DNA of 40,289 bases from an uncultured Opitutales bacterium. Lineage in GTDB: Bacteria > Verrucomicrobiota > Verrucomicrobiia > Opitutales > Intestinicryptomonadaceae. Of the stretch, positions 13,584-19,092 are shown in pieces (position 1 is the first letter of the stretch; every line of letters starts with the position of its first letter). The position numbers and the translations under genes were made by a program. The notes beneath the pieces were generated by a model. That model saw only the letters and a list, made by a program, of their open reading frames with translations, ran no database searches and was not told the origin of the DNA. The stretch lies in NCBI GenBank assembly GCA_944389885.1, contig CALXNZ010000022.1:1-40289 (forward strand). The letters are read 5' to 3'.

Positions 13584-15890
13584 TTACATTGGCATTTTTG
13601 TTCCTATTTGAAATATAACTCCCGCCTGATAGACCACAAAAGTTATGATGTAGGCTATCGCAAAAAGCATTACCGCCTCTCCCAAGGGAGCCAGCCATGA
13701 ATTTAGTTCGCGTTTTATTATTGCTAAAGTCGCCAGGCACGGAACGGACAATAAGCAAAATATCATTATGCAAAATCCCTGCAGCGGCGTATAATTCTTA
13801 GCCAACTGTTCCCGCAGAGATTCGCTTTCTTCGTCGGCTTCGCCTTCGGCGTAAAGGATTCCAAGCTGGGATACGAATACCTCCTTTGCCGCAAGCGCCC
13901 CTATGCTTGCAGTGGTGAGTTTCCAATCAAAACCTATTGGTTTAAATATAGGCTCAAAAAACTTACCCACGCGGCCGGAAATCGTATATTCCAAAACTTC
14001 CGCGCTCTTTTCATTCTCCAATAAAGTCAGGGATTCGTTTGCCGAGACAATAGAATCGATAATATCGCGCTGGGCTTTGTCCATTTTCCTTTCCGACAAC
14101 GATTCAACCAATTCCGCCGATATAGAGCCTTCTGATTTTACAAGTTCCGCTTCCTCCGCGGACATCATGCCGCCACCCTTTAAAATCGCGATTTGCTCAT
14201 CGCCAATTTCCGATTTCTTAGATGCGGCCTGCATCAGCGCGGAATAGTCTTTTGAAAACTCCGTTTTTTCCGGCAAAGTATTGCACAAGAAGAGTATTAT
14301 TGAAGTCGCCAAGATAATAGTTCCGGCTTTGTGGAGATATACCTTGCCTTTGTCCCACATATGCAGAAACAAACTGCGCAATGTAGGCATTCGGTAGGGA
14401 GGAAGCTCCATAAGGTAAACCTCACCTTCTCCCTTAAACAATGTACCCTTGAGGACACGGGCGGCCAAAAGGGCAACCGCAATTCCTATCAAATATATTA
14501 TCCACATCATCAGGGCTTGATACTCTTGCACAAAAAATGCCGGTATTATCAAAGCATAGATTGGCAGCCGCGCCCCGCAACTCATCAGCGGCAATATCAT
14601 GATAGTGGTTTTTCTATCGCGTTCGGACTCAATTCCGCGCGTTGCCATAATAGCCGGAACGCTGCAGCCAAACCCTAAAATCAACGGGACAAAAGACTTC
14701 CCCTGCAGCCCAAACCTTCGCATTATACCGTCCATTACAAATGCCGCCCTTGCCATATACCCGCTTTCTTCAAGAAGCGTAAGCGCAAAAAACATGAATA
14801 AAATATTCGGCAAAAATACTATTACTCCGCCCACGCCCCCAATGACTCCGTCGGTTATTAGAGATTTCAAATACTGAAGATTTTCATCGCCCCACATGAG
14901 ATTCACCAGCTCCGAAATTCTTCCAAAAAAATCTTCAATCCAACCCATGAGCGGATCGGCACATGTAAATGTAAACCAAAATGTCGCGTACATCACAGCG
15001 AGAAAAATCGGCAACCCCAAAAACTTATTTGTCATTACCGTATCTATCGTGTCGGAGATTTCCCTGCGCTTTTCCCCTCCCATTTTTATGGAATCTCTGC
15101 AGGCCCCGGAAAGCATAGCATAACGGCAATCTGCCATAAAAGTGGTTGTATCGTCGATAGCGTGTATATCCGACAAATGCTTAATCTGCCCGCATGCCTC
15201 CTTCCAAGCGCCCTGAAATTCAGGAATCTTCATAGTGCACGAATCGCTCTCGAGCAATTTTATGGCAAAGAACCTCGACGGAATATGCGCATAACGCTTT
15301 ATTCCAAGAGCGTCGATTTTCTCGGCAACTGCGGAGATTGAATCGTCTATGTCTTTTCCATAAGAGAGCATTGGAACTCCGTGCCCTTCAAGATTCATTA
15401 AAGCTTTCGAAAGCTTTTCTACGAGCGGTCGCACGCCTTCGGTGCTTCGTCCGACAGTCCGGGCTATGGGCGAGCCAAAATACTTTTCAAGTTTGGGTAT
15501 GTCGAACCTCATGCCTTTTTTCTCGGCGTCGTCGCTCATATTAAATACGAGAAGCATGGGTATGTGAAGTTCCGCCAACTGCGTTGTCAGATAAAGGCTC
15601 CTGCGCGGAATCGACGAGTCTATGACATTCAGTATGAGATCCACACCCGGTTTTGTAAGCTCGTTAAAAGCCACGGTCTCTTCCGGAGAATTTGACGATA
15701 ATGAATAAATGCCTGGCAGATCGACAAGCTCGATTTCCATATCGCCTATGGAAAATATCCCCGATTTGCTCTCAACGGTCACCCCGGGATAATTCCCCAC
15801 ATGCTGGCGCGCTCCTGTAAGCGAATTGAATATAGTTGTCTTTCCGCAATTTGGATTTCCAGCGAGCACTATTTTAAAATGCTTTTTCAT
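13584..15890 (-). CDS. feoB: Ferrous iron transport protein B
   Basis: FeoB is the inner-membrane iron(II) permease with a cytoplasmic G domain. The G motifs are visible: GNPNCGKT (residues 11-18, G1), DLPG (57-60, G3) and NMSD (117-120, G4). The membrane part holds the conserved gate sequences VFLPNILFMFFALTLLEESGYMAR and a FGCSVPAIMATRGIESERDRKTT region, and the C-terminal gate repeat around SIGALAAKEVFVSQLG. Length (768 aa) is normal. The start codon overlaps the feoA stop codon as ATGA, and the Cys-rich partner follows four bases after its stop. Expression is probably iron-regulated through the operator upstream of the porin gene. Confidence 0.97.
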   Translation of the reverse strand: MKKHFKIVLAGNPNCGKTTIFNSLTGARQHVGNYPGVTVESKSGIFSIGDMEIELVDLPGIYSLSSNSPEETVAFNELTKPGVDLILNVIDSSIPRRSLYLTTQLAELHIPMLLVFNMSDDAEKKGMRFDIPKLEKYFGSPIARTVGRSTEGVRPLVEKLSKALMNLEGHGVPMLSYGKDIDDSISAVAEKIDALGIKRYAHIPSRFFAIKLLESDSCTMKIPEFQGAWKEACGQIKHLSDIHAIDDTTTFMADCRYAMLSGACRDSIKMGGEKRREISDTIDTVMTNKFLGLPIFLAVMYATFWFTFTCADPLMGWIEDFFGRISELVNLMWGDENLQYLKSLITDGVIGGVGGVIVFLPNILFMFFALTLLEESGYMARAAFVMDGIMRRFGLQGKSFVPLILGFGCSVPAIMATRGIESERDRKTTIMILPLMSCGARLPIYALIIPAFFVQEYQALMMWIIYLIGIAVALLAARVLKGTLFKGEGEVYLMELPPYRMPTLRSLFLHMWDKGKVYLHKAGTIILATSIILFLCNTLPEKTEFSKDYSALMQAASKKSEIGDEQIAILKGGGMMSAEEAELVKSEGSISAELVESLSERKMDKAQRDIIDSIVSANESLTLLENEKSAEVLEYTISGRVGKFFEPIFKPIGFDWKLTTASIGALAAKEVFVSQLGILYAEGEADEESESLREQLAKNYTPLQGFCIMIFCLLSVPCLATLAIIKRELNSWLAPLGEAVMLFAIAYIITFVVYQAGVIFQIGTKMPM

Positions 15891-16159
15891 TTTTTTCCCT
15901 CTTTAATAATGATACCTTTAGCATCGGAAGAATGCAGAGCCATGCTTGCCTCCATCACCCTTACGCGCAAAAGCCCCCCAAAAGGGGCGTGGGATTCCAT
16001 TATAAGTTCCGTTCCCGGCACGAGTCCGACATCGGCAAACTTTTTCTTGCCGCGGGAATCCGATATTATGCCAACTATAGTTGCCGTTGCTCCAAGCGGC
16101 AGATCTGCAAGGGTGAGCGCCTTTTTTTCGGCGCTCACATTCTTCGTTTTTTTTCCCAT
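15887..16159 (-). CDS. feoA: Ferrous iron transport protein A (FeoA, SH3-like)
   Basis: A 90-residue protein with a FeoA SH3-like domain: LADLPLGATATIVGI, then FADVGLVPGTELIMESHAPFGG and the C-terminal SDAKGIIIKEG. FeoA is a small cytoplasmic partner of FeoB. I start it at ATG 16159 because a strong Shine-Dalgarno sequence (AAGGAGGG) lies just upstream; the frame extends to 16225, but that would overlap the porin C-terminus and lacks such a site. Its stop codon overlaps the feoB start. An N-terminal lysine-rich extension (GKKTKNVSAEKK) precedes the domain. Confidence 0.93.
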   Translation of the reverse strand: MGKKTKNVSAEKKALTLADLPLGATATIVGIISDSRGKKKFADVGLVPGTELIMESHAPFGGLLRVRVMEASMALHSSDAKGIIIKEGKK

Positions 16160-16169
16160 CTTTCCCTCC

Positions 16170-17477
16170 TTAGAAATTGATCTCCACTCTCGCCCCGACA
16201 ACAAAAGCCGTCTGGGTTTCTCCATTTTTATCTACCGTATTAAAATAAGTTTGAAAAGACGGCTGCAGGGCAATAGCCGACGCCAGTTGCGCCCTATAAG
16301 TAATTTCTATCATATTATCCCAACGCTTAAGTCCGTCTGCGGAGCGGGCCCCTGACCCCGTTTCAATAACCGAATACCCTATCGCCGCCACATCGTCCGC
16401 GCGACCTGGAATTGGAGCAAACCAGTTTAGACCGCAATCCGCATACTTTGTGCAAGATGCCATGTTTTCATCGGGGGCCCACGCCGCGCGCACAAATCCT
16501 CCCAACATGGCGTTCCCTTCGCCATCTTTTATGAACTCTTGTTGAAGGCCTATGTAAAATGAATAAAAATTGCGTTCGGTGGAATCCGTGCGGTAATCGT
16601 AAAATCTGCCGCTGTGGTAATTGCCGCCAAACTGGACGCGCCCGGAAAGCTCTCCCAACTCGTAATTATACCCCAACTGATACCATAGGGCGATATTTTG
16701 AAGCTCATAATCAAAACCGTTGTTGCCGGATACGTCCTCTCCGCAATTGCCGTTGTATATGCCGACGATAAAGTCTAAATTATCCCTGTTCCAGAATACC
16801 GTAGCCCCTAAAGTCGCAAGCGAATACTGTGAAAACGCCGTCGCGCCACTTGCAAGAGAATCGCCGGCATTCGCGGGAATCGCCCCAAAGCTCGAATTCA
16901 AGAATACGTCGGAGTAATCCATTCCCATAAAATCTTCGTCGGCGGCAAGCTGCCCCACTCTAAATCCGAATATACCGTATTCCGTTTCAAGCTCGTTCTT
17001 ATAATATATTTCAAAAACGCGCAGCATTTCTCCCGAAAATATATTGCTGGCATCGCTCATAGCCCCTACATATTCGCCGCTAAAATCCCCCGATTGCGTA
17101 TAATAGAACGCGCTAACGCCAAAAGTTCCGCATCCCTTTCCTTTTGCAAGAGCAGAAATGTCCTGTTCAAAGCCTATTGTAAAAAGGCTGTCCCAAACCG
17201 TGCCGGTATCCAATCCCCCGCTAACATTGCTCCATTGTTCCCCGGTCCATACTACCATCGGAGTAAATCCTACACCGAATATATATTTCTCGCAGGCGGG
17301 TAAAATGAACAAACTTTCACGTTCTGTCCAGTCCGCCCTAATCTCATCTCCAGGCGCCTCTCCTAACGGCACTCCGCTTTCCCGCGCGCTGTTTATTGTT
17401 CCTTGCGCAAACGCGCAGGACGCTATTAATGCCACAGCGCAAACAGCGGTTCCTATTGCTCTTCTCATCTCTCTCAT
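16170..17477 (-). CDS. OprB-like outer-membrane porin, first gene of the feo operon
   Basis: A 435-residue outer-membrane beta-barrel protein with a signal peptide (ends near SCAFAQ, residue 25), dense aromatic beta-strands, and a terminal phenylalanine (RVEINF), the usual outer-membrane insertion signal. Segments such as FRVGQLAADEDFMGMDYSDVFLNSSFGA are in the style of the OprB carbohydrate porin family. The gene starts 11 bases before feoA and shares its strand, so it is probably the operon leader. This suggests a role in letting iron(II) or an iron complex cross the outer membrane, but the substrate is not proven. A palindromic operator lies 8-23 bases before ATG 17477. Confidence 0.8.
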   Translation of the reverse strand: MREMRRAIGTAVCAVALIASCAFAQGTINSARESGVPLGEAPGDEIRADWTERESLFILPACEKYIFGVGFTPMVVWTGEQWSNVSGGLDTGTVWDSLFTIGFEQDISALAKGKGCGTFGVSAFYYTQSGDFSGEYVGAMSDASNIFSGEMLRVFEIYYKNELETEYGIFGFRVGQLAADEDFMGMDYSDVFLNSSFGAIPANAGDSLASGATAFSQYSLATLGATVFWNRDNLDFIVGIYNGNCGEDVSGNNGFDYELQNIALWYQLGYNYELGELSGRVQFGGNYHSGRFYDYRTDSTERNFYSFYIGLQQEFIKDGEGNAMLGGFVRAAWAPDENMASCTKYADCGLNWFAPIPGRADDVAAIGYSVIETGSGARSADGLKRWDNMIEITYRAQLASAIALQPSFQTYFNTVDKNGETQTAFVVGARVEINF

Positions 17478-17484
17478 GTTTTTT

Positions 17485-17500
17485 GTTAGTTTAATCTAAC
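17485..17500. promoter_or_regulatory. Putative DtxR-family operator before the porin-feo operon
   Basis: GTTAGTTTAATCTAAC is a palindrome with five-base arms (GTTAG/CTAAC). It fits the pattern GTTA-N8-TAAC shared with two more sites beside the DtxR-family gene. It lies just upstream of the porin start codon. Confidence 0.6.
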
Positions 17501-17602
17501 TTTTTGTTTAAAAATTTTTTGCTCACCCGTTGATAAAATCCCATAATTTCCAGCCATGCCGTGAAAGCGCAGGGGCATTTCCCAACTTTCATAATCAATT
17601 CA

Positions 17603-18001
17603 TCATCTTTTTTTAGCCTCAAAATCCCCCATAAACATAGCCAGCCTAAATGCTATATTACCTCCTATGGCATGTTCCATTCTACATGCCACCTCGTCCG
17701 CTTCACTATTGGGAATGTCGAGAACGCGCGTAAGAAAAAACGACAATAATTTATGCCTGTTCAAAACGCATTCTGCAACTTCCCTGCCTTTAGCTGTAAG
17801 AATTACCGGCCTGTATTTTTCATATATTACATATCCATGTTCTCCCAAACTCGACAGGGCGTCCGAAACAGTGGATTTAGATACGCCATGCGCCTTCGAT
17901 ATGTCTATAAGCCGAACGGGCGCACCGCCTTTGGAAAGAAGCAGTATCGTCTCAAGATAGTCCTCTTTAACCTCGCTCAAATTATCCGCCGTTCTTTTCA
18001 T
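17603..18001 (-). CDS. DtxR/MntR-family metal-dependent transcriptional regulator
   Basis: A 132-residue DNA-binding protein with the N-terminal winged helix of the DtxR family: DYLETILLLSKGGAPVRLIDIS, the recognition helix region GVSKSTVSDALSSLGEHGYV (about residues 39-58), then YRPVILTAKGREVAECVLNRH and the metal-binding dimerisation domain (SFFLTRVLDIPNSEADEVACRMEHAI). It lacks a C-terminal SH3 domain, so it is MntR-like in size. These proteins repress transport genes when Fe(II) or Mn(II) is bound. It lies between the porin-feo operon and a divergent cbiM-type gene, and palindromic sites occur on both sides, which supports autoregulation and control of both neighbours. Confidence 0.93.
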   Translation of the reverse strand: MKRTADNLSEVKEDYLETILLLSKGGAPVRLIDISKAHGVSKSTVSDALSSLGEHGYVIYEKYRPVILTAKGREVAECVLNRHKLLSFFLTRVLDIPNSEADEVACRMEHAIGGNIAFRLAMFMGDFEAKKR

Positions 18002-18014
18002 TTTCGCCGCATAA

Positions 18015-18034
18015 AAGTTAAATAAGCCTAACTT
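18015..18034. promoter_or_regulatory. Putative DtxR-family operator, regulator-proximal
   Basis: AAGTTA-N8-TAACTT, a perfect six-base-arm palindrome, lies 14 bases upstream of the regulator's start codon. The arms and spacing equal those of the two other sites (17485-17500 and 18045-18066). Confidence 0.65.
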
Positions 18035-18044
18035 GTCAACAAAA

Positions 18045-18066
18045 AAAGTTAATATAAACTAACTTT
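18045..18066. promoter_or_regulatory. Putative DtxR-family operator, cbiM-proximal
   Basis: AAAGTTA-N8-TAACTTT, a perfect seven-base-arm palindrome, lies between the regulator and the divergent cbiM-type gene. It is the strongest of the three GTTA-N8-TAAC sites. Confidence 0.65.
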
Positions 18067-18189: not shown

Positions 18190-19092
18190 ATGCACATACC
18201 CTCAGAGATGCTCTCAGGAGCGATTTGCCCTTTAACCGCCACAATAGCTGCCGCAGGAATCGGGACATCAATATATATGTTGTCAAGTGGAGCACGACAG
18301 ATACCTTCACCATTAAAATTCTCCCTTACAAGCGCTGCGGTATTCGCTGTGCAAATGTTAAACTATCCTATATGGGACGGAATTTCAGGGCATCTTATAG
18401 GCGGGGTATTTGCGGCTGCAATATTGGGTATTCCTGCCGCGGTGTTATCGATGTCTATAGTATTGCTACTTCAGACACTAATATTTGCAGATGGTGGAAT
18501 TCTAATGCTGGGAGCAAACATTGTGAACATGGCTCTTATCGGAACTGGCATAGGAGGCCTCGCAAGAAATATACTTGCCAAAAATGGGATAGGAGCGAAA
18601 GCTTCCATAGCAATAGCCGCATTTGTTTCAGTGGAATTGGCGGCATTTTCCCTATGCATAGAACTATATTCCTCCGGAAAGGGAAATGCAGAAGTATTCG
18701 GCACTTTGCTTGGAATATATGCCATTCTTGGAATCATTGAGGCGGCGGCTACTATAATGTTTTTAAGCCTTGTACAGACAAACGAAAAAGAATCCACCCG
18801 TTCCAAGCGTACAATTTATGCGCTTGGCGGCATAATTATTACAGCCTTGGCGCTTTCTCCGCTCGCATCGGCATTTCCGGACGCTTTTGAGTGGACAATG
18901 AAGAATTTTTCGCTACTTCCAGACGCTCCCAACTTTACTGGAGCTCCGTTTGCCGACTACTCTGTGACGGCAATTTCCTCAGAGATTCTCTCCGAGCTAT
19001 CCGCAGCTATAATAGGGATAGCATGCACGGCGGCATTAACATTGGCAACCGGCATATTATTATCCCTTTGCCGCAGGGGAGCCGCCCAATAA
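18190..19092 (+). CDS. cbiM: CbiM/NikM-type metal-uptake S component with PDGLE-like C-terminus
   Basis: A 300-residue membrane protein. It begins with MHIP, the N-terminal metal-binding motif (Met1/His2) of CbiM/NikM, and has QMLNYPIWDGISGHLIGG (residues 55-72), matching the family block with His68. The C-terminal part FPDAFEWTMKNFSLLP and PFADYSV resembles the PDGLE/CbiN-like domain, so the substrate-binding and accessory parts appear fused. These are S components of energy-coupling-factor transporters for Co or Ni. No CbiQ or CbiO partner is present here. The start ATG 18190 has an upstream AGGAG. Its promoter region contains the DtxR-type palindrome, so the metal may be iron, manganese, cobalt or nickel. 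Confidence 0.88.
   Translation: MHIPSEMLSGAICPLTATIAAAGIGTSIYMLSSGARQIPSPLKFSLTSAAVFAVQMLNYPIWDGISGHLIGGVFAAAILGIPAAVLSMSIVLLLQTLIFADGGILMLGANIVNMALIGTGIGGLARNILAKNGIGAKASIAIAAFVSVELAAFSLCIELYSSGKGNAEVFGTLLGIYAILGIIEAAATIMFLSLVQTNEKESTRSKRTIYALGGIIITALALSPLASAFPDAFEWTMKNFSLLPDAPNFTGAPFADYSVTAISSEILSELSAAIIGIACTAALTLATGILLSLCRRGAAQ

Follow-up and report, generated by a model that had tools for sequence, protein, structure and literature searches.

We describe a candidate iron regulon in an uncultured Opitutales bacterium, centered on three GTTA-N8-TAAC palindromes that lie within 582 bp of the window, the 40,289-nucleotide stretch analyzed here (contig C22 of a 27-contig genome). All three are intergenic and belong to a locus that encodes a DtxR-family metalloregulator (DtxR1), an OprB-family porin and the FeoA and FeoB proteins; one precedes the porin gene, and a tandem pair is situated between dtxR1 and a divergent cbiM-type gene (Table 1). 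These palindromes are very likely operators of an iron-type repressor of the DtxR family, most probably DtxR1 and possibly shared with its paralog DtxR2. The preliminary description of this DNA was right about the palindromes and about their placement relative to the porin, dtxR and cbiM genes, and its interpretation was mostly right as well; the wider coordinates it gave for the tandem pair denote the same sites with AA/TT flanks (18015-18034, for example, is AAGTTA-N8-TAACTT). The sites would provide a concrete iron regulon for this lineage, for which no previously described regulator was found; our literature search on DtxR regulons of Verrucomicrobia likewise found nothing direct.

Clustering and conservation of the palindromes

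The three matches in the window compared with 0.40 expected, and at least three were seen in 2 of 100 shuffles. Genome-wide, the total (13 sites in 2,211,753 bp) was not raised, but the sites were strongly clustered at this locus. Given the 10 sites elsewhere, 0.0026 were expected in the 582-bp span (P(≥3) = 2.8e-9), and a calculation from the composition of just the two intergenic gaps gave P = 2.2e-7. Also, the extended motif AAGTTAG-N6-CTAACTT with at most two mismatches occurred at only four genomic positions, which were the three window operators and C6:4982 on contig C6. Its reversed pattern, used as a control, occurred at 19, so the motif is not simply a common word. The shuffles and the unraised total are what might be expected if such palindromes arose by chance in AT-rich gaps, but this origin is contradicted by the clustering (P of 1e-7 to 1e-9) and by conservation at orthologous positions in relatives, and we rejected it as extremely improbable. 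Another sequence of this kind, GTTAGACTTACCTAAC at C9:36057 (L006), had weak flanks, was located about 190 bp 5' of a surface-anchor-like gene and is possibly due to chance.

We compared the locus with uncultured Opitutales and Verrucomicrobiota metagenome assemblies (loci and genomes are designated L and G). Among loci of the same family that carry dtxR1 or dtxR2 orthologues followed by a porin, feoA or feoB2 gene, six (L044, L045, L046, L052, L062 and L063) had a palindrome both 5' of dtxR and between dtxR and the next gene, and six (L047, L049, L055, L057, L058 and L061) had one palindrome by the strict pattern. An equivalent of operator 1 was present between dtxR and the porin or feoA gene in L044, L045, L046, L047, L049 and L052. 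When relatives were searched with the palindrome itself, it led to porin-feoAB clusters (L107, L108, L110 and L112, of which L107 was feoA-feoB without a porin call), to porin-imelysin clusters (L102 and L103), and to imelysin genes alone or with downstream di-haem oxidoreductase and FecCD genes (L104 and L115). It was also found at a protoporphyrinogen-oxidase-like gene and ferrochelatase (L112), the first of which was present in L130 as well. In contrast to this family, the dtxR loci of other families in the order (L031-L043) contained no such site, with the exception of one fragment in G040 (L030), which had one. Thus, an iron-type DtxR regulon with these palindromes as operators is well supported across the family. 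Family 8 glycosyltransferase genes followed an operator or an operator-bearing porin gene in G012 (L116 and L117).

Two further loci of the source genome are candidate members of the regulon. The second dtxR-feoB locus (L050) contained GTTAGCTTGCCCTAAC at C8:7310-7325, between dtxR2 and feoB2, and no clear site directly 5' of dtxR2; the regulon may therefore reach feoB2 through this weaker site. The operator at C6:4982-5001 (L064) was located about 70 bp 5' of a gene for a P1B-1 Cu-type ATPase with CPC, N-x6-YN-x4-P and M-x2-SS motifs. Orthologues with more than 50% identity were limited to the source genome, G002 and G011, and all three had the operator in the promoter region, suggesting that the strict regulon also takes in this Cu-type P-ATPase. 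Two other P-type ATPase genes (L245 in G005 and L246 in G008) had a one-mismatch site 43-49 bp upstream.

Putative promoter architecture and probable regulator

On the minus strand, the region upstream of dtxR1 reads TTGACA-A-GTTAGGCTTATTTAAC-TTTTAT-GCGGCGAAAATG, in which operator 2 and one additional A separate a perfect -35 box from a plausible -10 box by 17 bp. This arrangement recurred: TTGAC[A/G] began 7 bases ahead of the operator at 12 of 51 sites, where 0.054 would be expected, and the complete arrangement, TTGAC[A/G]-N-[operator]-hexamer with the spacer fixed at 17 bp, was seen in 16 distinct instances among the loci compared. Besides, among neighboring operators within 150 bp of each other, a distance of 30-32 bp was found for 11 pairs, and every other distance occurred at most twice; the 31-bp spacing of the tandem sites corresponds to about three helical turns. 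The two sites upstream of dtxR1 are best read as a signature of dtxR autoregulation. A generic promoter and terminator scan of the locus was uninformative. The -35 box was 37-38 bp ahead of the dtxR ATG in the source genome, G013, G002 and G003, so the dtxR mRNA may be nearly leaderless, in contrast to feoA, which has a clear AGGAGG.

These features suggest a likely mechanism. One homodimer would bind each GTTAG-N6-CTAAC, its two recognition helices each taking one TTAG/CTAA arm, once ferrous iron (possibly also manganese) has filled an Asp/Glu/His/Cys/Glu/His site. Since the operator fills the spacer between the -35 and -10 boxes, a metal-loaded dimer at dtxR1 would block RNA polymerase, perhaps assisted by another dimer bound three helical turns upstream. 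The dtxR1(-porin-feoA-feoB) cluster, if co-transcribed, would then be shut off by its own product. Operator 1, just 5' of the porin start, would allow porin-feoAB to be controlled at a second point.

DtxR1 was placed by Pfam and PDB sequence matches. It scored well above the cut-offs for both domains of the DtxR/IdeR/MntR family, the N-terminal Fe_dep_repress winged helix-turn-helix (PF01325, 57.4 bits; cut-off 26) and the Fe_dep_repr_C dimerization and metal domain (PF02742, 58.6 bits; cut-off 27). Residues D14, E17, H83, C106, E109 and H110 were invariant in the alignment of DtxR1 proteins, and all 20 DtxR1 and DtxR2 proteins had Asp, Glu, His, Cys, Glu and His at the positions of MntR D8/E11/H77, DtxR C102 and E105/H106. 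The regulator thus combines MntR-like Asp/Glu with DtxR-like Cys. Among iron-type features of DtxR and IdeR, the Cys102 equivalent was present, but Asp replaced Met10, the ancillary ligands E83 and H98 of DtxR were absent, and the protein ends at residue 132 with no SH3-like C-terminal domain. The NCBIfam MntR equivalogs were not reached either (74.7 bits versus 153 and 67.7 versus 138), and Cys occupied the position of Glu99. Because the targets are iron genes, iron is the likeliest signal, perhaps together with manganese.

The source genome has two DtxR-family genes, dtxR1 on C22 and dtxR2 on C8 beside feoB2; DtxR2 has 224 residues and a FeoA/SH3-like domain. In G002, G013, G014 and G016 only dtxR1 was present, adjacent to the same motif, and G001, G005, G008, G009, G015 and G017, with a single dtxR2-type gene, had this motif at porin/feo or dtxR2-feoB2. 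Because the motif is shared by genomes that have either paralog alone, DtxR1 and DtxR2 probably both read it. Of the proposal that a metal regulon is governed by one regulator, the part that stands is a DtxR-type regulon joining dtxR, porin and feoAB, with an operator conserved across the family; that there is one regulator is uncertain in view of DtxR2. The six genomes of DtxR2 type and the similar core site between dtxR2 and feoB2 would also fit sites that are chiefly DtxR2 operators, with a minor or different role for DtxR1. This arrangement is possible but rather unlikely, as the four genomes with only DtxR1 use the same motif and the tandem operator is on the dtxR1 promoter itself.

Several observations weigh against an operator role under DtxR1. 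In two incomplete relatives (G006 and G011), sites were present although no DtxR gene was detected. The dtxR1 promoter was missed by the generic sigma-70 scan, for which A is obligatory at position 2. The base preference of the family operators differs from that of IdeR, as described below. From relatives, 46 distinct strict sites were collected, and their consensus was AAGTTAG-N6-CTAACTT with an A/T-rich center, but these loci were partly picked for holding the motif, which biases the base frequencies towards it; the dtxR-orthologue loci (the L044-L063 set) were picked by protein and are free of this bias. According to a review, members of the DtxR family that lack an SH3 domain, as DtxR1 does, show no response to Fe in vivo (PMC7762939). 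Finally, the source genome encodes one Fur-family protein, another candidate iron regulator for targets that are iron genes. However, the motif is associated with dtxR genes, its geometry across phyla is that of a single-dimer DtxR site, and no Fur was detected in the site-bearing genomes G008 and G017, so that binding by Fur in place of DtxR is very improbable.

The divergent cbiM gene and other features of the locus

The preliminary description had also included the divergent cbiM-type gene, as an S-component, in the regulon. This part was unsupported, since none of eight cbiM orthologues away from dtxR had TTAR-N6-YTAA within 600 bp. The tandem pair lies in and beside the dtxR promoter and follows dtxR rather than cbiM, and we rejected cbiM as a conserved target. 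If the regulator did control cbiM as well as feo, the regulon might respond to cobalt or nickel (or manganese). The tandem sites between dtxR and cbiM in the source genome, a weak plus-strand promoter-like match (TTGTCA-16-TAAACT, 18033-18060) that overlaps them, and a cbiM gene located 2 kb past the corresponding tandem site in G012 all agree with such control. But apart from the missing sites at the orthologues away from dtxR, the gene that faces the tandem operator in G012 encodes a DUF5696 protein and is followed by cbiM, promoter-like matches were no more frequent than in shuffled sequence (2 found versus 2.2 expected), and the remaining targets are iron genes. A Co/Ni regulon is thus improbable, and the target content points to iron.

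The CbiM proteins showed a pattern of their own. CbiQ/EcfT was absent in all 10 family genomes with the window-type CbiM fused to PDGLE and present in all five with conventional CbiM, a split expected by chance once in 3003. The solitary CbiM was located beside dtxR-feo in two genomes and beside ferritin in three (L120, L123 and L126; in L123 ferritin was called by sequence similarity only). It is conceivable, though doubtful, that solitary CbiM + PDGLE is a metal carrier tied to iron handling, which would carry Fe(II) or Co(II) independently of any energy-coupling factor (ECF) module and whose gene has co-opted the DtxR operator locally. Table 1 lists the features of the locus, where Pfam and NCBIfam models identified the OprB porin, FeoA, FeoB, the two-domain DtxR-family protein and CbiM fused to PDGLE.

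Table 1. Coordinates of probable operators, putative promoter elements and genes in the window
Feature	Position	Strand	Remarks
feoB, ferrous iron permease	13584..15890	-	TIGR00437, 566.7 bits (cut-off 315.65)
feoA	15887..16159	-	PF04023; probable start 16159 after AGGAGG; longest open reading frame to 16225
OprB-family porin	16170..17477	-	PF04966, 4.3e-35
Operator 1	17485..17500	.	GTTAGTTTAATCTAAC; 8 bp 5' of porin ATG (17477), 3' of dtxR1
dtxR1, two-domain DtxR-family metalloregulator	17603..18001	-	132 residues; no SH3/FeoA domain
Putative -10 box of dtxR1, TTTTAT	18011..18016	-	17-bp spacer
Operator 2, promoter-proximal	18017..18032	.	minus strand reads GTTAGGCTTATTTAAC; with one A fills 17-bp spacer of putative dtxR promoter
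Putative -35 box of dtxR1, TTGACA	18034..18039	-	TTGAC[A/G] recurrence at offset -7
Operator 3, upstream tandem copy	18048..18063	.	minus strand reads GTTAGTTTATATTAAC; 31 bp from operator 2
CbiM + PDGLE (CbiMN-like), divergent, solitary	18190..19092	+	neighbor; regulon membership not supported

Comparison with known DtxR-family systems

The preliminary description had matched the palindrome to GTTAG..CTAAC within the DtxR consensus. We rejected this central GTTAG-N-CTAAC match and replaced it with the spacing TTAG-N6-CTAA, so that GTTA-N8-TAAC is better written as G-TTAG-N6-CTAA-C, which has the spacing of a binding site for a single DtxR/IdeR dimer. An IdeR dimer touches the first and third CCTAA repeats of its 19-bp box, and an engineered half site was bound by one dimer with an apparent dissociation constant (KD) of 78 nM (PMC8464063); the operator form is also reviewed in PMC10317159. 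Two TTAG-N6-CTAA sites at a 5-bp offset rebuild TTAGGTTAGNCTAACCTAA. The spacing was present in full at 17485, and at 18017 and 18048 one arm was TTAA in place of TTAG (an A/T substitution). As a test without selection for the motif, we also counted TTAG-Nx-CTAA (x = 0 to 14) at 73 dtxR loci from other groups, including Kiritimatiellae, Desulfobacterota, Coatesbacteria and marine euryarchaea. Near dtxR or feo starts, the N6 spacing gave 53 matches in 24.7 kb, whereas the other 507 kb contained 20. The enrichment was thus 53-fold, although the 53 matches are not independent, several archaeal loci being closely related to each other. For the other spacers, counts near these genes ranged from 0 to a maximum of 4, reached at x = 1 and x = 13, and N6 was clearly dominant. 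This observation suggests that several phyla, as well as marine archaea, use an IdeR-type single-dimer half site at their dtxR and feo genes. Marine euryarchaeal dtxR genes (L187, L189, L215, L220, L221 and similar) had arrays of three TTAGG-N4-CCTAA, the first two 15 bp apart.

The sites thus resemble the DtxR/IdeR operator (TTAGGTTAGSCTAACCTAA) in the geometry that places a dimer on repeats 1 and 3, in having iron genes as targets and in lying inside the core promoter. In contrast, DtxR and IdeR use two overlapping dimer sites 5 bp apart (19 bp), whereas single-dimer sites were found here, with tandem copies about 31 bp apart. The bases retained also differ: the outer G/C (GTTAG/CTAAC) was kept in 95 of 118 arms, and the inner G/C of TTAGG/CCTAA, including the inner C of CCTAA, in only 17 of 118. 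Gln43 is replaced by Asp, Asn, Ala, Val or Ser in these proteins; we did not rely on its loss as the cause of the shifted base preference, since IdeR Q43A keeps its affinity (PMC8464063).

Among other regulators, PgMntR of Porphyromonas gingivalis has the same hybrid metal site, with MntR-like Asp and DtxR-like Cys. It binds both Fe and Mn, and its gene shares an operon with that of the FeoB-type transporter FB2; as a difference, DNA binding by two site variants of PgMntR was inhibited by Fe(II) (PMC4805248). Bacillus subtilis MntR is likewise a two-domain protein, and DtxR1 keeps equivalents of its Asp8/Glu11/His77/Glu102/His103; in contrast, DtxR1 has Cys for Glu99, feo targets and scores below the NCBIfam MntR cut-offs. 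Treponema denticola TroR, a DtxR-family repressor that responds to Mn and Fe, is associated with an 18-bp dyad next to a promoter of the sigma-70 type; however, it regulates the troABCD ABC (ATP-binding cassette) transporter and has Glu at the Cys102 position (PMC2628430). A two-domain DtxR protein with a hybrid Asp/Cys metal site, placed on iron genes, bears on the statement that SH3-less members are not Fe-responsive in vivo. It is well supported that the system is a known DtxR-type switch with variant features, which are its base preference, its single-dimer tandem sites and a hybrid metal site without SH3.
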